Source: Alloprevotella sp. oral taxon 473 str. F0040
Lineage (GTDB): Bacteria; Bacteroidota; Bacteroidia; Bacteroidales; Bacteroidaceae
Length of the DNA: 64,000 nt
Reading direction: 5' to 3'
Assembly: GCF_000318095.2 (NCBI RefSeq)
Contig: NZ_KB290714.1
Span: 1-64,000 of the forward strand
The position numbers were made by a program, and so were the translations under genes. Positions 1-59,237 of the stretch are shown piece after piece. Numbering within the stretch: the stretch's first letter is position 1; every line of letters begins with the position of its first letter. The notes below the pieces were generated by a model. That model worked only from the letters and a program-made list of their open reading frames with translations, did no database searches and was not told the DNA's origin.

Positions 1-541
1 AAGACTTTCTATAAAAAAATCGGAGGAAAATTTTAGATGGCACCATTTTGCTATGTATACTACGCAAGTTCCACCCTTATAGCCCATTTTTCACACCCAC
101 CCCACTGGAACGAGATTTTACCCTTTTCTATCCCCTTTGATGGCGTTTGAGGGTGTCTCATGCTATCATCGCGCTTTGCGGTCTCTAAAATGCTCCACTA
201 TCGGCAGTTGTTCTCCACCAATTCTCCGCTTCTCTCGGACCTTTCTCAAAAAACGTGGGAGATTTCCCCAAAAACGTTGGAGTTTTTTTCAGTCCCCTCC
301 GAAAGAATATTTCTCACAGCAAATAGAAACACAAATAAAGCAGGAAATGGAAGAGCTGCAAGCTTAGAAGTTCAACCTTTAATTGCGAGAATAGACAACT
401 TTCAAGCATAGACAAAATAATAACGCGCGCGCGTAGAAAATGATTCATACAGCAGTGGCGAAGGTGATAATCCTCCATAAACGAATCGATACACTTGCGA
501 AATAGGCTTGTTTACCCTAGAGCAGACGTAGCTAGGAAGAA
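1..541. other. gene-free left edge with degenerate repeat remnants
   Basis: I see no convincing gene here. The only open frames are short, overlap each other and show no family features. The stretch does hold pieces that recur in the other two gene-free regions of the window: a degenerate GGAGATTT-type repeat of about 21-nt period near 231-310, a run CGCGCGCGCG at 424-433, and a GCCCATTTTTCACACCC segment near 82-99 that resembles a motif near 14866 and 55367. It is probably a decayed copy of the same repeat cluster. This is an inference from short matches only. Confidence 0.5.
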
Positions 542-2426: not shown

Positions 2427-3431
2427 CTAAGACTGTTCTTTTGAGGCCGCTTGCAGTTCAGATAAAGACGAAGTAGAGGAGGCTTTGGCACGCTTTTCTG
2501 CTTCTAGCAAGTCGCGGCGCGACTTGGAGAGTGTCACAAGAGCTACTCCCGAAAAGATGAGTGCCACGGCCAAGGCGTGGGTGAGCGTGAAGACTGCAAG
2601 CCCAAGAATAATACTAACAATGACAGCTACAATGGGCTGCACATAGTTATACATACTTACCACAGTTGGTCGCAACACTTGTTGACCTCGAATCATCAAT
2701 ATATAAGCTAGGAAAGTTCCTCCGACGACGACATAAAGAATTTCGCCGAGCGTGACAGCAGAAAGAGTGCTCCATGGAGTTTGCCACACATGATATGCAG
2801 TAAATGGCCAAATGATACAGGTGGCCGAAAGGAACATCCACTTATTCACCGTGAAGATACTGTAGCGTTTAGCCAACCACCCGAACACAGTGAGGTAAAT
2901 GGTATATGATATCTGAGCCGCAAAACAGAGGAGATCCCCACGAATGTCGCCCATGCTCAAAGTGCCTACCGCAGCACTTCCAGAAGCAGCACGCACGCTC
3001 GACATCACCAGCAAGACTGCACCACAGCATCCCAAGGCTACACCCAGTGCTTTGCGCAATGTTATAGGTTCTTTAAGGATTATCGCCGAAAAAATAAGTG
3101 CTGAAATGGGCATGGTTGTGGTGACAATACCAGCATTGACAGGCGAAGTGAGGCTAAGCCCAATGGTGAAGCAACACTGATTGCCTACGAGTCCAAAAAC
3201 TGCAGCAAGGCACAAAAGAGCGATATGTTTTCGGGAAATTGATTCACGAGGTGCAAAGAGAGAGGAAATCCAAAAGAGTATAGCACCTCCCATGACTCGC
3301 AGTGAAACGAGCGTGATGCCATCAATGCCATGTTGCATGGCATCTTTGCCCAGTGGCGACATGAGCCCCCAACAGATTGCTGCACCTGCAAGGCTAAAAT
3401 GAGCTAGAAGAGGAATTCGATTAGTAGACAT
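2427..3431 (-). CDS. EamA/DMT-family inner-membrane transporter
   Basis: A 334-residue polytopic membrane protein with about ten predicted membrane segments arranged as two EamA repeats (roughly residues 10-140 and 165-305). The first repeat shows the typical start AGAAICWGLMSPLGKDA and a PITLRKALGVALGCCGAVLLV segment; the second ends LGLAVFTLTHALAVALIFSGVALV. Drug/metabolite transporters of this type export amino acids, nucleotides or other small metabolites; the substrate cannot be told from sequence. The C-terminal 30 residues are charged and cytoplasmic. It is the first gene of a probable DMT-DUF2141-barrel transcript. A short TTAGAC-type repeat tract lies just upstream. Confidence 0.88.
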   Translation of the reverse strand: MSTNRIPLLAHFSLAGAAICWGLMSPLGKDAMQHGIDGITLVSLRVMGGAILFWISSLFAPRESISRKHIALLCLAAVFGLVGNQCCFTIGLSLTSPVNAGIVTTTMPISALIFSAIILKEPITLRKALGVALGCCGAVLLVMSSVRAASGSAAVGTLSMGDIRGDLLCFAAQISYTIYLTVFGWLAKRYSIFTVNKWMFLSATCIIWPFTAYHVWQTPWSTLSAVTLGEILYVVVGGTFLAYILMIRGQQVLRPTVVSMYNYVQPIVAVIVSIILGLAVFTLTHALAVALIFSGVALVTLSKSRRDLLEAEKRAKASSTSSLSELQAASKEQS

Positions 3432-3435
3432 TGAA

Positions 3436-3468
3436 TGTTAGAGAGTAGACATTAGACATTAGAGAATC
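3436..3468. repeat. short TTAGACATTAGA-type repeat tract
   Basis: Four to five tandem copies of a TTAGAnAGTAGACATTAGA-like octamer unit directly upstream of the DMT transporter gene. It is the same family as the larger arrays at 8.4, 49.7, 57.4 and 59.1 kb, but short and in one orientation only. Confidence 0.6.
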
Positions 3469-8399: not shown

Positions 8400-8592
8400 G
8401 AGACATTAGGGGGCACAGCCCCTATTTAGAGGTTAGGTATTAGACCTTAGTAATTAGAGGTTGGAGGTTAGACGTTAGAAATTAGACGTTAGCCTCTAGC
8501 ATATAGGACGTAAAGATGCAAGATTCTAGAGATTAGACGTCAGACGTTAGAGGTTAGAGCCTACCAGCAGCCCATAACGTCTAACGTCTTCC
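8400..8592. repeat. fold-back TTAGACGTTAGA repeat array between leuS and yitT-like gene
   Basis: About a dozen degenerate copies of a TTAGAnnTTAGA unit run forward from 8400 to 8560; at 8575-8592 the unit appears inverted (AACGTCTAACGTCT). A small GGGGCACAGCCCC palindrome lies near 8411-8424. The transcript of this stretch could fold into a long imperfect stem. No reading frame explains it. Confidence 0.75.
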
Positions 8593-15102: not shown

Positions 15103-15383
15103 CGCGTGCGCGTCGCACGCGCCTTCCCTGGGATTTTGACTTTTTCTCTTTCACAACCTTCACAAAAGTCGACAACAACTTATCTTGTTCCCCTTCCGCA
15201 AGTCACTCATACGTGATGTGACTTGCGGAAGGCAAAAGCAGCATTTTTCGATACAAAACTCACCATTCTGTTAAAAATTGTCCGAAAAACACGTGTTATT
15301 CTCTGTAATACAACTCATTACAGACAAATCGGTGAAGGTTGTGAAAGCAAAAACATCAACTTTGCTGTACGTACGCGCGCGAG
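15103..15383. repeat. inverted-repeat element with CG-rich tips (copy 1)
   Basis: The left arm has CGCGTGCGCGTCGCACGCGC (15103-15122) and then CTTTCACAACCTTCAC (15148-15163). The right arm has the exact complement GTGAAGGTTGTGAAAG (15332-15347), an A-rich spacer and GTACGTACGCGCGCGAG (15367-15383). Between the arms lie 168 nt that include a perfect 15-bp hairpin and a 7-bp hairpin (15303-15323). No reading frame spans it. A second element with the same arms but a different interior is at 54751-55134, which suggests a small mobile or RNA-encoding element. Confidence 0.75.
15192..15232. ncRNA. perfect 15-bp stem-loop inside the inverted-repeat element
   Basis: CCTTCCGCAAGTCAC at 15192-15206 pairs perfectly with 15218-15232 around an 11-nt loop. 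There is no T tract on either side, so it is not a standard terminator. Whether it is transcribed is unknown; it could be an RNA structure, a protein-binding cruciform or a recombination site. I list it as a candidate only. Confidence 0.35.
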
Positions 15384-15561: not shown

Positions 15562-15670
15562 GTCGCAGATTTTGGTGCAAAAAGTCCGAGTTTCTCTCAA
15601 ATATCTCCGAGATTTTCTGAAAAAACTCGGAGATATTTTCGTAAAAATCCGACAAAACTTTGCCAAAACT
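15562..15670. repeat. 21-nt degenerate repeat tract (copy 2)
   Basis: Four to five units related to ATCTCCGAGATTTTCTGAAA with a spacing of about 21 nt; some units appear as the complement (CTCGGAGATATTTTC), so the tract can also fold. Related tracts lie at 231-310, 34475-34588 (inside a gene) and 54986-55030. Confidence 0.7.
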
Positions 15671-34228: not shown

Positions 34229-35041
34229 CTAGAAATAATTGACAACATAGTGCTGGCGTTGAAGTTTGGGATAGCAAAAGGCTACTCCGAAGCGGTGCAG
34301 GTCGAAAGACACCGTGGTATAGTCCAACTGCTGGAGCGACTGCCAAGCCGTGGTGCGCTCCTCATTGGCATGAGGCAGAAACAAGACAAAAACAGACTGG
34401 GGCGACAATGCCGAATGCGGGGCTTTAACATCCATGGGGGAAGGGGAGATTTCGGCCGATGCAACACAAGTAGCGGAGTTATGCTCAGCACTCTCCGAGA
34501 TAAGCAAAGAAATGTCCGACATTTTCTCAAAACTCTCGGACTTTTTTGGAAATATCTCCGAGTTTTTTTCTAAACTCTCCGAGATTTTCGGACACAAGTG
34601 GGAGAAATGTGCTTGACTTGGGCTTGCAGCTGCCATCCACAGCACGAAGTCGAAGCGATACTGCGCCAGTAGGCCTTGCTTAAAAGCCTGATCCACCGCC
34701 GCCTCATCGGCGAAATGAACTATCGTGGCAGAAGGGCGCGCGGCTTTGAGGTAATGGATTTCTCGCTCCACCCTTTCTCCTACAACTAAGATGCAAGTGG
34801 CCTTAATGTGATTAGCCATGCGGAAGAGCAAACGAGCATCTTTCACGGAGAGAACTCCTGGCCACACCTCATGATGCTTGGATAGGTGGGCATAGGCATA
34901 GTATTGCGCCTTCTGATTGTACACCACGTCGGTGATCCACTCAAAAGCAAAGGGCGAATGCACACCGTAGCCTCGGCGTTGACGAAAACGACGAAACCAC
35001 CGCAAGATGCGAGGAATCAGGCAATAGGAAGGCAACATCAT
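34229..35041 (-). CDS. degenerate SAM-methyltransferase-like protein carrying a repeat-derived insert
   Basis: A 270-residue protein. The N-terminus (RFRQRRGYGVHSPFAFEWITDVVY) matches a Bacteroidetes family annotated as class I SAM-dependent methyltransferases, but the SAM-binding glycine-rich loop is replaced by ILVVGERVEREIH, so activity is doubtful. Between the strand DFVLWMAAASP (about 131-141) and VFVLFLPHANEE (about 217-228) lies an extra segment of about 65 residues. Residues 152-189 of it are heptads such as KISESLE, KNSEIFP and KKSESFE. These are the translation of the same 21-nt repeat found in intergenic DNA at 231, 15562 and 54986. The repeat seems to have entered the gene in frame. 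The gene lies downstream of a terminator that follows the transglutaminase gene. Confidence 0.6.
   Translation of the reverse strand: MMLPSYCLIPRILRWFRRFRQRRGYGVHSPFAFEWITDVVYNQKAQYYAYAHLSKHHEVWPGVLSVKDARLLFRMANHIKATCILVVGERVEREIHYLKAARPSATIVHFADEAAVDQAFKQGLLAQYRFDFVLWMAAASPSQAHFSHLCPKISESLEKNSEIFPKKSESFEKMSDISLLISESAEHNSATCVASAEISPSPMDVKAPHSALSPQSVFVLFLPHANEERTTAWQSLQQLDYTTVSFDLHRFGVAFCYPKLQRQHYVVNYF
34475..34588. repeat. 21-nt degenerate repeat tract inside a coding sequence (copy 3)
   Basis: About five units of the CTCCGAGATTTTC / CTCGGACTTTTTTGG type lie inside the methyltransferase-like gene. The 21-nt period equals seven codons, so the frame is kept and a heptad peptide is produced. 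Confidence 0.75.
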
Positions 35042-45775: not shown

Positions 45776-47737
45776 TTAGTTAGCAGGTGACACTTTCTGC
45801 ACTACGGCACGCCCCTTTGCAGTAATGCGTATGAGGAGGGAGGACTGTCCACGAGGAATACGGAAGGAGCAAGAAGTCTGTTTTATCACAGTCTGTTGCA
45901 ACTCGCGTCCTTCGAGGGATATCACCTCTACTTTAGCACCTTCTGGAGCAGCAACGTGGAGAATGTCACCTTCCCAACCACAAGAATAGTTGAAGGAGGT
46001 TGCGGTAGACACTCCTGCAACTCCACTCTTAATGGGAGCATCTTGCAAGATTTTCACATGCTCCACGACTTTGCGGTCGGACTGAGGGAGATAGAAGTGA
46101 CAGTCCAACACGGCATTGCGTGGTTTATCCTCTTCATTGGGTTCAACAATCAGTTGAATCTTTGTCTTTCCCTGACCTTGCCACAAAGTACTACTGAACC
46201 ACATTGCAGATGTTTGGAGAGAAAACTCTGCAGGTGCATCAATCGTGAGTACGACGATAGTGTCTTTTGCAGAAACATGGATGTCATTGGGAGAAATCCT
46301 CCATTTTTCTTCAACCTTAGGTGGATTAACTGGCTCTACTGGTTTAGGATTGGGCTTAATGGGATCCACCGGTTTGGGGTCAGGCTTCGTGGGCTCAACT
46401 GGCTTGGGGTCAGGCTTCGCGGGCTCCACTGGCTTGGGATCGGGCTTGACAGGATCTACCGGCTTAGGCTCAGGTTTGACGGGATCCACTGGCTTGGGAT
46501 CGGGCTTGACGGGATTAACTGGCTTGGGATCGGGCTTGACGGGATCTACTGGCTTGGGATCGGGCTTGACAGGATCTACCGGTTTGGGGTCAGGCTTAGG
46601 CTCGGGTTGATCAGAGGAAAGCTCTGTGCCTTGTTGAACCACGGTGTAGTTAACAAAGGTAGATTCGTCATCGCCAATGAGTTCAAAACGAAGATGTCCC
46701 ACTCGCGATTCCTTCTGCGGATTGTCTGCGACCGAGAGTCTAAAAGTTTTACTGTTGTATCCCGACTTCAAATCGGTAGTGAGCCATGCAGCATCACTGG
46801 TCACCAAATAGGTAGCCGTGGTGGTCATCTTCACTTCTAGGGTTTGTGCGCGATGATCGGGACGCCACTCTGCAGGAGCAAAACTGATTTGTGTGTTGCC
46901 TTCGCTAAACTGAGCAACGATAGGCATACGCTCGCGCAGCATGCGCACATTATCTTCCGTGGCAGAGCCCAAAACTACACCTTTCCACACACTTTTAGGC
47001 CCAGAGAAAATAGGTACTTGTCCTCCCACATGATCATGTGGTCCAGCCATCACCGTGCGATATTCGGGACGACTCGCCCCGACTGCATACTCATGCTTGC
47101 CTGCATCCACCTGTTGTCGCGAGTGCTGACAACCGATGTTGTGCGCGGCTTCGTGCGCCGCCGTATAATTGACTGCTGCCATAGAAGCACGTACGGAGGA
47201 GAAACCAGCATCTATACTCTTTGCCTCCTGAGTCGCCAATCCCGAAGCTCCATCGTTGACGGGTTCGGAAAGCAAAACCACAAGGTCGGCTTTTGCAGCA
47301 TCTCGCTGACGGCGTACTTCGGCATGGGCAGAAACCAATCCCAAACCTTGGTTGATGCTCTGCGCTTTTTCGGCAATCTCCATGTAGCCTGCCAAACGAA
47401 AACGCCCTTCTACATGAGAATTGCGCAACACAGCATTGATAGATTCTACCACCTCTTGGGCATATTTAGCCATACCTCCTCGTTGCGTTGCTACAGCTTT
47501 GCCCGAAGGATCATAGACCACAAAATAATCGATAATGGGCACACTGGTCTGAGCTTGGGTAGAAGCAGTGCGCCACGAAGAAGGTAGCGAATGATAAAAA
47601 GAGGTAGCATGCACCTTTTCCACTGCACCAATGGTAGGACTTAGGATTAAAGTACAAAGAAGGAATAGGAAACTCAATTTCTGTTTCACCACCGCATAAG
47701 AATGGTGTTTAGAAAAGAAAGATTGCAGACTTTTCAT
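45776..47737 (-). CDS. secreted metzincin-type metalloprotease with BACON-like domains and Pro/Lys/Asp repeat linker
   Basis: A 653-residue exported protein, using ATG 47737 (MKSLQSFFSKHHSYAVV); in-frame ATGs 9 and 12 nt upstream are also possible. After the signal peptide, a reprolysin-like protease domain carries HEAAHNIGCQH at residues 195-205, the HExxHxxGxxH zinc motif. A BACON-type beta domain follows (LVTSDAAWLTTDLKSG ... LRFELIGDDESTFVNYTVVQQG), then about nine copies of the ten-residue DPKPVDPVKP-like unit, then a second BACON-like domain (WRISPNDIHVSAKDTIVVL) and a C-terminal beta domain resembling a T9SS sorting domain (VEVISLEGRELQQTV ... KGRAVVQKV). It is probably displayed on the cell surface or released. 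It follows a Crp/Fnr gene by 66 nt on the same strand. Confidence 0.85.
   Translation of the reverse strand: MKSLQSFFSKHHSYAVVKQKLSFLFLLCTLILSPTIGAVEKVHATSFYHSLPSSWRTASTQAQTSVPIIDYFVVYDPSGKAVATQRGGMAKYAQEVVESINAVLRNSHVEGRFRLAGYMEIAEKAQSINQGLGLVSAHAEVRRQRDAAKADLVVLLSEPVNDGASGLATQEAKSIDAGFSSVRASMAAVNYTAAHEAAHNIGCQHSRQQVDAGKHEYAVGASRPEYRTVMAGPHDHVGGQVPIFSGPKSVWKGVVLGSATEDNVRMLRERMPIVAQFSEGNTQISFAPAEWRPDHRAQTLEVKMTTTATYLVTSDAAWLTTDLKSGYNSKTFRLSVADNPQKESRVGHLRFELIGDDESTFVNYTVVQQGTELSSDQPEPKPDPKPVDPVKPDPKPVDPVKPDPKPVNPVKPDPKPVDPVKPEPKPVDPVKPDPKPVEPAKPDPKPVEPTKPDPKPVDPIKPNPKPVEPVNPPKVEEKWRISPNDIHVSAKDTIVVLTIDAPAEFSLQTSAMWFSSTLWQGQGKTKIQLIVEPNEEDKPRNAVLDCHFYLPQSDRKVVEHVKILQDAPIKSGVAGVSTATSFNYSCGWEGDILHVAAPEGAKVEVISLEGRELQQTVIKQTSCSFRIPRGQSSLLIRITAKGRAVVQKVSPAN
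46330..46610 (-). repeat. 30-bp in-frame tandem repeat encoding the DPKPVDPVKP linker
   Basis: About nine to ten near-identical 30-bp units, varying mainly at the third residue pair (VDPV, VNPV, VEPA, VEPT, VDPI). Adjacent units are nearly identical at the DNA level, so copy number may change by slippage or recombination. Confidence 0.88.
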
Positions 47738-49705: not shown

Positions 49706-49868
49706 ATAGACGTTAGAAGTTAGACGTTAGAAATTAGAGGGTAGAAATTAGAAGTCCTTGAGATTTTCTAGTTCTTCTAGAGTATCTAGTTCTTCTCGTT
49801 TGCTAGAATATCTAGTCCAATAGCGTTAGCCCTCTAACGTCTAACATCTAATGTCTAACCTCTAATTC
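49706..49868. repeat. fold-back TTAGACGTTAGA repeat array between mtnN and luxS
   Basis: Forward copies (TAGACGTTAGAAGTTAGACG and variants) fill 49706-49752; inverted copies (CTAACGTCTAACATCTAATG and variants) fill 49828-49868. A TCTAGTTCTTCTAG-like spacer with short direct repeats lies between. The whole can fold into a long imperfect stem. Confidence 0.8.
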
Positions 49869-50556
49869 CTAAAATAAAATGTTTTGTGATGTCGAAAGAG
49901 CGATGCGCCATTTCCGACCAGAAGTTCTCATATTGTGCCCAGTGTTCGTCCACACCAGGAGTGTCGCTGATGATGCGGAAGCTCACAAATGGCACCTTTT
50001 CGAGGTGGCACACTTGAGCGATGGCCGCACTCTCCATGTCAACTGCCAGACCATCGGGGAATTGCGCTTTTATGCCTGCCAAAATCGCATGATCGGTGAT
50101 AAATTTATCGCCTGTGCAAATCAATCCTGTGTGGATTTTCGTCTGTATCGAAGCATCTGCCGCCATCTCACGTGCCACCTCCAAGAGAGGCTCAGCACCG
50201 GCAAAGCGTGCAGGCAGCCCTTGCACCTGACCATAGAGGTTGCCTTCGCCACACCACACATCGTGATAGGTGGTTTCTGCTCCCACGACGACATCCATCA
50301 CACCCAATTTCGCATCGATGCCACCAGCACATCCCGAATTGATGATGGCTTCTGGAGCAAAACGTGCGATAAGTTGAGTAGCTCCTACGGCAGCATTGAC
50401 TTTACCAATACCACACTGCATGAGCACAATCTCGTGATGCGCTAATTTACCCGTGGTATAGGTGCGGCCATCCACCAAAATATCTTCGCGCTGCTCTAGC
50501 AAAGCCGCTATTTGCGCGTGTTCTTCAGACATGGCCGTGATAATTCCTAATTTCAT
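49855..50556 (-). CDS. mtnN: 5'-methylthioadenosine/S-adenosylhomocysteine nucleosidase
   Basis: A 233-residue nucleosidase, using ATG 50556 (MKLGIITAMSEEHAQI), which gives the usual N-terminus; the longer frame to 50625 would overlap the promoter. It splits adenine from SAH and MTA. The motifs MSEEHAQIAALL, QCGIGKVNAAVGATQLI, NSGCAGGIDAKLGVMDVVV and the ribose-binding VDMESAAIAQVC followed by FRIISD are intact. With luxS downstream it completes the route from SAH to AI-2. A TATCTTTG element at 50583-50590 on the minus strand probably drives it. Confidence 0.96.
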   Translation of the reverse strand: MKLGIITAMSEEHAQIAALLEQREDILVDGRTYTTGKLAHHEIVLMQCGIGKVNAAVGATQLIARFAPEAIINSGCAGGIDAKLGVMDVVVGAETTYHDVWCGEGNLYGQVQGLPARFAGAEPLLEVAREMAADASIQTKIHTGLICTGDKFITDHAILAGIKAQFPDGLAVDMESAAIAQVCHLEKVPFVSFRIISDTPGVDEHWAQYENFWSEMAHRSFDITKHFILGIRG

Positions 50557-54750: not shown

Positions 54751-55134
54751 CGCGCACGCGTACGCGCGCGCACCCTGCAATTTACACTTTTTGCTTTCAC
54801 AACCTTCACCATTTTCCGCTTAACATTATCTATTACAGCAATATACAGCATATTTATAACATCTTTTTTGAGAATTACTCAGAAACCGTGGAAAGGGAAG
54901 CAAAAATATAGATTATTCAATCAGAAAAATAGAATTATCGTACACTAAACTTGGAGCAAATTCTAGAATTCTCTGAGCGCAGTATAAAAAAGTCGAAGAT
55001 TTCTCATAAAATCTCCGACTTTTTCTTCGTATAACTCCTTGATTCTTATATAGAAATAGAATAGAGAAACAAACATCCTGTGAAGGTTGTGAAAGCAAAA
55101 AGTGCAAATTTCCTGACATGCGCGCGCGTACGCG
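54751..55134. repeat. inverted-repeat element with CG-rich tips (copy 2)
   Basis: The left tip CGCGCACGCGTACGCGCGCG (54751-54770) is followed by an arm at 54786-54809 that contains GCTTTCACAACCTTCAC. A perfect 24-bp complement lies at 55080-55103 (GTGAAGGTTGTGAAAG...), followed by GCAAATT and the right tip GCGCGCGCGTACGCG (55120-55134). The similarity of the arms continues imperfectly into the tips. The 270-nt interior is AT-rich, differs from that of copy 1 and carries a 21-nt repeat tract. No reading frame spans it. Confidence 0.8.
54986..55030. repeat. 21-nt degenerate repeat tract (copy 4)
   Basis: AAAGTCGAAGATTTCTCATA followed by AAATCTCCGACTTTTTCTTC: two units facing each other, so the tract can fold as a hairpin. 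It is related to the tracts at 231, 15562 and 34475. Confidence 0.6.
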
Positions 55135-55393: not shown

Positions 55394-55691
55394 ATCGTTG
55401 AAAGAACAAGAAGGAAAAGAGGAAAAGAGCTTCACACCAAATAATAGAAAAAACTTCGAGGATTGTTGCGATTAAATCTTTGAAGTATGCTAAATATAAC
55501 TCGTTGAAGTAGCCAATATGGCACAAAAAAATGGGATACCACTGTACCCCAACCTTGTTAACCTTAAATCTAATACTATGAAAAACACATTGCAAAGATA
55601 CCATTTTCTTCGCAACTCTGCAAGAGTTTTACCTAATTATTTTATGAAACAATCCGTTTTTCGTTCATTATTGGGTATTATAGCTTCAAAT

Positions 55692-59064: not shown

Positions 59065-59236
59065 TTAGATGTTAGAAGATAGACGTTAGAGGGCTTCGCA
59101 GTTGGACGTATCTTAGACGCTTTTAGACGTTAGATGTTAGGGCTGTACCTTTTTTGCTCGGCTTGCTAGCTTCGAGCTTTTTAGACGTTAGAATCTGTGA
59201 CCCTCTAATGTCTAATGTCTAACGTCTAATATCTAA
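59065..59236. repeat. fold-back TTAGACGTTAGA repeat array between the peptidase and epimerase genes
   Basis: Forward units (TTAGATGTTAGAAGATAGAC and others) run from 59065 to about 59190, interrupted by TTTTTTGCTCGGCTTGCTAG; inverted units (CCTCTAATGTCTAATGTCTA and on) fill 59201-59236. This is the clearest fold-back array of the family in the window. Confidence 0.8.
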
Positions 59237-59237
59237 T

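Follow-up and report, generated by a model that had tools for sequence, protein, structure and literature searches.

Evenly spaced arrays of a 21-bp palindromic repeat in Alloprevotella, some of them lying in frame within protein genes

How does a run of seven-residue repeats come to lie within one member of a conserved bacterial protein family? The question is raised by a 64,000-nucleotide stretch of the genome of Alloprevotella sp. oral taxon 473 str. F0040 (contig NZ_KB290714.1, positions 1 to 64,000; hereafter the window), in which a minus-strand gene at 34229..35041 encodes a 270-amino-acid protein of a conserved Bacteroidales family with an RRGYGIHSPFAF motif. The protein has no match in Pfam or NCBIfam, and its label, methyltransferase-like, is inferred from sequence alone: it rests solely on strings resembling motif I (ILEIGSGFG) that occur in distant orthologues. 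The orthologues in 28 other genomes measure about 158–230 amino acids, against 270 in the window species (genome G000) and 291 in its sister species (G033; LT608321.1, 'Prevotellaceae bacterium Marseille-P2826'). Between parts of the protein that align at FVLW and VFVLF, an extra segment spans approximately residues 148–210 (about 34412–34600). It is present only in the window species and G033, with heptads in both. A first-pass annotation had proposed that an intergenic repeat entered this coding sequence in frame, and had named a family-wide segment with unrelated DNA among the orthologues as a finding that would refute it; absence of the segment from all of them except that of G033 leaves the claim standing.

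Beneath the heptads we found a 21-nt array at 34451..34604 on the minus strand, with eight units in register (PWM score 77.7; the five clearest at 34493–34583), which reads on that strand as KISESLE KNSEIFP KKSESFE KMSDIS and onward. The first-pass annotation's account of the heptads KISESLE, KNSEIFP and KKSESFE as the translation of a 21-nt DNA repeat thus held, with its array limits of 34475–34588 slightly short, and so did its description of the peptide as amphipathic, since the helical moment at heptad spacing is significant (P 0.0155 here and ≤0.044 in other array-bearing proteins). The unit itself, given there as CTCCGAG/CTCGGAC-TTTTTT, proved partly right and incomplete. In full it is a 21-bp palindrome in which a 7-bp core, CTCSGAG, alternates with a 14-bp palindromic spacer, ATTTTYNRAAAAWT. 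A matrix of 220 units is two-fold symmetric, the core ([C/G]TC[C/G]GA[C/G]) about an axis at position 4 and the spacer about an axis at 14.5, and dyad axes recur every 10.5 bp. From this period we infer one dyad per helical turn, with the sites aligned along one side of the double helix. Cores of a more degenerate kind (GTGGGAG, CTCCTAG, CAAGGAG) also occur. In G000 and G033, neighbouring cores are slightly more identical than shuffled ones; their complementarity is not enriched (4.88 of 7 vs 4.93 in shuffles), which disfavours selection for hairpins between neighbouring cores.

Arrays of this kind, usually of 4–8 units, form a family that extends across the genome, and the segment in the methyltransferase-like gene belongs to it. 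In a search of all 24 contigs of the genome (2.55 Mb) for two cores 21 nt apart, the pattern STCSGAS-N14-STCSGAS returned 180 exact matches, where the reversed pattern returned 0; with one mismatch the counts were 353 and 14. We also trained a position weight matrix without C14 and C17, part of C16 being among the training contigs. Across 444 kb of C14 it detected 26 arrays, whereas the reversed sequence yielded none at any of the thresholds tried, which ranged from 14 to 25 bits. The first-pass annotation had suggested such a genome-wide profile search and would have accepted chance-level copy numbers as refutation; copies far exceed chance and the refutation fails. Three other tracts that it had placed in the window at 231–310, 15562–15670 and 54986–55030 were confirmed as the same type and refined to 213..303 (5 units in non-coding DNA; orthologous to a G033 array at C6:1795316), 15584..15653 (4 intergenic units; orthologous to the G033 array at C6:1779963) and 54950..55019 (4 intergenic units). 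All three lie outside long genes.

Both the window species and its sister carry the family, and its 7+14 layout recurs in a few other members of the genus. Among 58 genus genomes the exact pattern is richest in G000 (180), G013 (145) and G033 (98). Three poorer genomes, G003 (21), G073 (22) and G069 (12), have distinct units that keep the 7+14 palindromic layout around their own AT-rich spacers, as in the G073 unit CTCCGAG-CTAATTTGAATTAG-CTCGGAG. A stricter pattern is practically missing from the 197 genomes searched elsewhere in the order.

Although most arrays are intergenic, some are found in the linkers or termini of protein genes, where they keep an open reading frame. Searching the DNA without regard to reading frame and then inspecting the open reading frames, we found in-frame arrays in at least six G000 genes, rather than the single gene from which the first-pass annotation had suggested looking for heptads in other proteins: those for the methyltransferase-like protein, RsmF (rsmF), a GSCFA protein, TopB (topB; in a part that neither of the two TopB profile segments covers), a MobB-type relaxase (at the C terminus) and an APH-like kinase. 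The G033 carriers are the methyltransferase-like, GSCFA, MobB, beta-ketoacyl-synthase and MMPL-type transporter genes. A SusD-like gene has an array at its 5' end in both genomes, where translation of the array is uncertain. Most in-gene arrays use the frame that yields S-E heptads, and the APH-like and MMPL genes use a different one (LGDFSAK, VGDFSKN). We therefore dropped the notion of an exclusive S-E frame, to which our initial peptide search had been biased. Because the three frames are about equally open in non-coding arrays, we claim no selection for a frame. The rsmF gene of G033 has an open frame 35 amino acids shorter (105 nt, or 5 x 21) and no recognisable array; its DNA is approximately 92–95% identical to that of G000 outside a diverged linker. 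Of the 39 arrays on C14 and C17 1–400 kb, contigs that we examined without bias, only 2 lie within conserved genes, and arrays therefore strongly avoid genes.

The in-frame entry of an intergenic repeat into a coding sequence is thus supported. The companion idea, that divisibility of 21 by three lets the unit spread within genes, is not demonstrated: the dispersed entities are whole arrays without flank homology, and two frames are used. The 21-bp period corresponds to two turns of the helix, with a dyad every 10.5 bp, and this is a more probable reason for it than a multiple of the codon.

Comparison of the sister species shows how the arrays evolve. C14 aligns to G033 over about 350 kb at 86% identity, and within the part of G033 that we checked, about 14 of 21 C14 arrays have a counterpart at the corresponding position (in one case with poor alignment), 4 are absent and 3 fall at synteny breaks. 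The arrays are thus mostly old and common to the two species, a correction to the first-pass view. Units are gained and lost in 21-bp steps: the three aligned array pairs at 181193, 159796 and 288611 differ by exact multiples of the unit, 21 bp in two of them and 42 bp in the other. Arrays are often more similar between the species than their flanks (for example, 0.87 vs 0.65), and conservation is concentrated at particular unit positions, with T2 and A6 97% and 90% identical between G000 and G033 and other positions lower. At many loci the two genomes have shifted in concert to different consensus units. Indeed, the core-edge dinucleotide is CG solely in G033 at 22 sites and solely in G000 at 1, against 111:83 in flanking DNA. 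Such a concerted shift is compatible either with an altered binding protein or with conversion between arrays.

Arrays also form subfamilies that arose by copying of whole arrays. Among 1953 array pairs, 338 exceed 70% identity, compared with 20 of 780 in the null set, and we found no shared homology or ends in the flanks of the paralogous arrays. Recent slippage as the sole origin is rejected, as pooled spacer identity is the same within and between arrays (0.534 and 0.536); taken in one orientation, neighbours are slightly more alike (0.514 vs 0.473). A search of G033 for a clean empty insertion site found none: two candidates keep a remnant of one or two cores, a third cannot be aligned, and rsmF has the diverged linker. 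Two G033 arrays, at C6:1795316 and 1802332, lie 7 kb from each other and are 100% identical, which points to a recent local duplication. Synteny breaks or inversions between C14 and G033 (at approximately 54.9, 76.3, 99, 110 and 126 kb) coincide with loci of arrays or of the inverted pair described below, as if these were recombining.

The striking feature of the arrays, which the first-pass annotation missed, is that they are spaced along the chromosome more evenly than chance allows, most strongly on C14. There, 26 arrays on 444 kb are separated by a mean gap of 17.6 kb, with a coefficient of variation (CV) of 0.28 and a minimum of 8.8 kb. Random placement, whether uniform, weighted by intergenic length or drawn per intergenic region (20,000 trials each), gave mean CVs of 0.88–0.97, and the observed CV and minimum were reached in 0 of 20,000 trials under each scheme. 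The gene-borne array fills a regular slot in this series: without it, C14 would have a gap of 39.4 kb, its largest hole, compared with 28.4 kb for the largest other gap. As the spacing idea arose on C14 itself, the minimum-gap tests on C17 and in G033 are the fairer ones. On C17, the minimum gap among 13 arrays (11.2 kb) is unusual (P 0.004–0.007); the gap CV of 0.90 is not, owing to a 107-kb array-free stretch. Over 434 kb of G033, both the gap CV (0.56; P 0.003–0.006) and the minimum gap (P 0.002–0.003) are unusual, and only 3 gaps among 81 known G033 array loci are shorter than 8 kb, where 16.7 are expected, the closest pair being the two identical arrays. This test is not fully independent, because array loci are common to G033 and G000. 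Sampled GC skew in G033 revealed no simple relation to origin or terminus, and we found no report of evenly spaced repeat arrays in the literature searched. The array-free stretch of C17 (approximately 153.5–260.6 kb) has a G+C content of about 0.40, compared with 0.475 in the window.

Many arrays are accompanied by an outward-facing inverted pair, GTGAAGGTTGTGAAAG, composed of GTGAAGGTTGTGAAAGCAAAAAGTGCAAAATTGCAGGG and a CGCGCG tract. In the window, one pair at 15148..15347 (inner gap 168 bp) lies approximately 240 bp from the array at 15584, and a second at 54794..55095 (inner gap 270 bp) encloses the array at 54950 between its two halves. The inner gap usually measures 166–179 bp without an array and 213–314 bp with one. 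All 38 GTGAAGG halves on C14 lie within 442 bp of an array, and 19 of the 26 C14 arrays have a pair nearby; the remaining 7, the gene-borne one included, lack it. We found no pair on C17 1–400 kb, and among the 58 genomes the pair is limited to G000 and G033. It could represent the ends of a separate element. Runs of 20 Ns lie inside GTGAAGG copies on C14 (99273, 138940, 159904 and 209689), where the scaffold joins are possibly uncertain.

What, then, are these arrays? We favour, at a probability of roughly 0.58, a DNA-level element, most plausibly an array for cooperative protein binding, that is tolerated in genes; the binder and the function are both inferred. In this reading, the arrays would be bound cooperatively by an unidentified protein or other DNA-organising factor, with dyads every 10.5 bp placing all sites on one side of the helix, and the bound protein may act as a marker or anchor for domains of the chromosome about 10–30 kb in size. 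An array would occasionally land in, or grow within, a permissive stretch of a gene, where the 21-bp period preserves the frame and the heptad peptide, weakly amphipathic and harmless, would be tolerated; the methyltransferase-like gene would be such a case. A cooperative chromosome-organising binder would jointly explain the symmetry, the phasing, the concerted change and the spacing. Non-random spacing of multi-site arrays, as expected of domain-organising arrays, is seen in the CV on C14 and in the minimum gaps on C17 and in G033. Against the binding-array reading, no binding protein has been identified, some G000 arrays are missing from G033, and the arrays form paralogous subfamilies, which is what a mobile or selfish repeat would produce.

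A bolder version, which we judge less likely than not, would see in the arrays a regularly spaced set of sites (about 1 per 18 kb on the best-covered contig and hardly ever closer than 7–8 kb) bound by a dedicated nucleoid-organising protein, with genes at needed positions carrying the array in frame. If this were true, chromosome architecture would be written into protein sequence, an example of DNA-level needs shaping proteins. If the spacing is functional, it would offer a map of chromosome domains, readable from sequence, in a common host-associated genus. The sister species supply loci both with and without arrays.

The main rival, which remains possible, is a selfish minisatellite or MITE-like element without host function. 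It would have arrays copied by an unknown transposition or conversion, resized by unequal exchange and landing occasionally in a gene, with the spacing produced by target immunity of the mobilising enzyme or by selection against close repeats. In its favour are the whole-array paralogy, the presence/absence differences between sister species, the confinement to a few species of the genus, the GTGAAGG pair alongside, which resembles MITE ends, and the precedent of BrickBuilt (PMC4596501). Against it, the arrays lack homologous flanks or visible ends, no RAYT-type transposase (PF01797) occurs in five array-bearing genomes, and constraint is suggested both by the concerted changes at set positions of the unit and by one base being 97% conserved. 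Most loci are also common to the sister species, so any selfish activity must be low.

An RNA-level role is less likely, and is not excluded. Transcribed arrays would serve as bidirectional terminators or mRNA-stability hairpins, as many REPs do. Sampled arrays fold better as RNA than their shuffled versions do (z −1.8 to −6.3), genomes such as G073 and G003 have near-perfect palindromes built of one or two units, and there may be a mild excess between convergent genes (6/23). Against this, arrays occur in every gene orientation, usually hundreds of bases from genes and also inside them, and a separate classical terminator adjoins one array. An RNA hairpin under covariation we reject, as neighbouring cores in G000 and G033 are no more complementary than shuffled ones.

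A protein-level element is very improbable. Here the heptad would be a useful, selected module (a coiled coil or interaction segment) and the non-coding copies its decayed relics or donors, as in PARCELs. The significant helical moment and the use of the S-E frame in at least five different host proteins of G000 speak for it. Against it stand the 2 of 39 arrays in conserved genes, the two genes that read VGDFSKN-type heptads, the about equal openness of intergenic arrays in all frames and the conservation of non-coding arrays in place. Chance or low-complexity resemblance in AT-rich DNA, which an AT-rich and degenerate unit might suggest, is practically ruled out by 180 vs 0 exact and 353 vs 14 one-mismatch matches and by the absence of control matches in 444 kb.

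The array family departs in at least one defining feature from each of the known systems that it resembles, namely BrickBuilt, RPE, REP and PARCEL. BrickBuilt, a MITE of Porphyromonas gingivalis with a 23-nt minisatellite that is always intergenic (PMC4596501), likewise occurs in Bacteroidales as tens of dispersed copies of a short tandem repeat of similar length, with imperfect units, a repeat number that varies at conserved loci, and flanking inverted elements, the counterpart here being the GTGAAGG pair at many arrays. Its unit yields frequent stops when translated, and it has leader and tail segments with inverted-repeat ends. By contrast, the Alloprevotella unit is a 21-nt palindrome that changes in 21- or 42-bp steps, lies sometimes in genes and in frame, and is evenly spaced; nor can the GTGAAGG pair fill the place of leader and tail, being near 19/26 C14 arrays and absent from the gene-borne array and from C17 1–400 kb. 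As to the terminal inverted repeats and target-site duplication of MITEs in general, the flanks of paralogous arrays showed no common ends and no clean empty site turned up, and the outward GTGAAGG pair could be the ends of a separate element.

In-frame palindromic repeats in conserved genes have been described in Rickettsia, in Wolbachia and, as REPs, in several species (PMC2229807, PMC3733652). The Rickettsia palindromic elements (RPEs; Ogata et al. 2000/2002, reviewed in PMC2229807) were invoked by the first-pass annotation as similar in kind and different in unit, and this held. Like RPEs, the Alloprevotella family is palindromic, with some copies in intergenic DNA and others fused in frame within conserved protein genes; unlike them, it consists of tandem 21-bp units in variable number without defined ends, in another phylum, whereas RPEs are single stem-loops of 105–146 bp with terminal inverted repeats. 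REPs, which are GTAG- or CGTC-tagged and include intragenic copies (PMC3733652), share palindromes of 20–40 bp, high copy number, a mostly intergenic location and the occasional encoding of 20–30 amino acids inside genes. The arrays described here differ in their exact 21-bp tandem register and in not adjoining gene ends, and their unit matrix, CTCSGAG plus ATTTTYNRAAAAWT, contains neither tag. The RAYT gene (Y1_Tnp, PF01797) that accompanies REPtrons is absent from G000, G033, G013, G073 and G003, and we reject RAYT-driven spread. CGTC-type REPs likewise lack a dedicated RAYT (PMC3733652). PARCELs, palindromic coding repeats that are amphipathic and 25 residues long (PMC2996958), share tandem palindromic DNA that encodes amphipathic repeats, with dyad symmetry in the coding DNA. 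They differ in their 25-residue protein unit, located in open reading frames and spread by gene transfer, from the 7-residue and mainly non-coding units here. We found no prior report of the array family in Alloprevotella in the literature searched. It is a large family of a different, tandem design in Bacteroidota, and its even spacing may be new.

Further repeats and elements in the window were noted in passing. Degenerate 7-nt repeats, TTAGANN / TCTAACG, at 3423–3465, 8426–8492, 49707–49872 and 59204–59237 constitute a second short-period family. A FopS small RNA (RF04319, 73 bits) lies at 55522–55588 on the minus strand, 0.5 kb from the array at 54950. At 46338–46597, also on the minus strand, 30-nt repeats encode a PKPVDPVKPD linker in a 657-amino-acid protein, which also has a metalloprotease-like AAHEAAHNIGCQH stretch.
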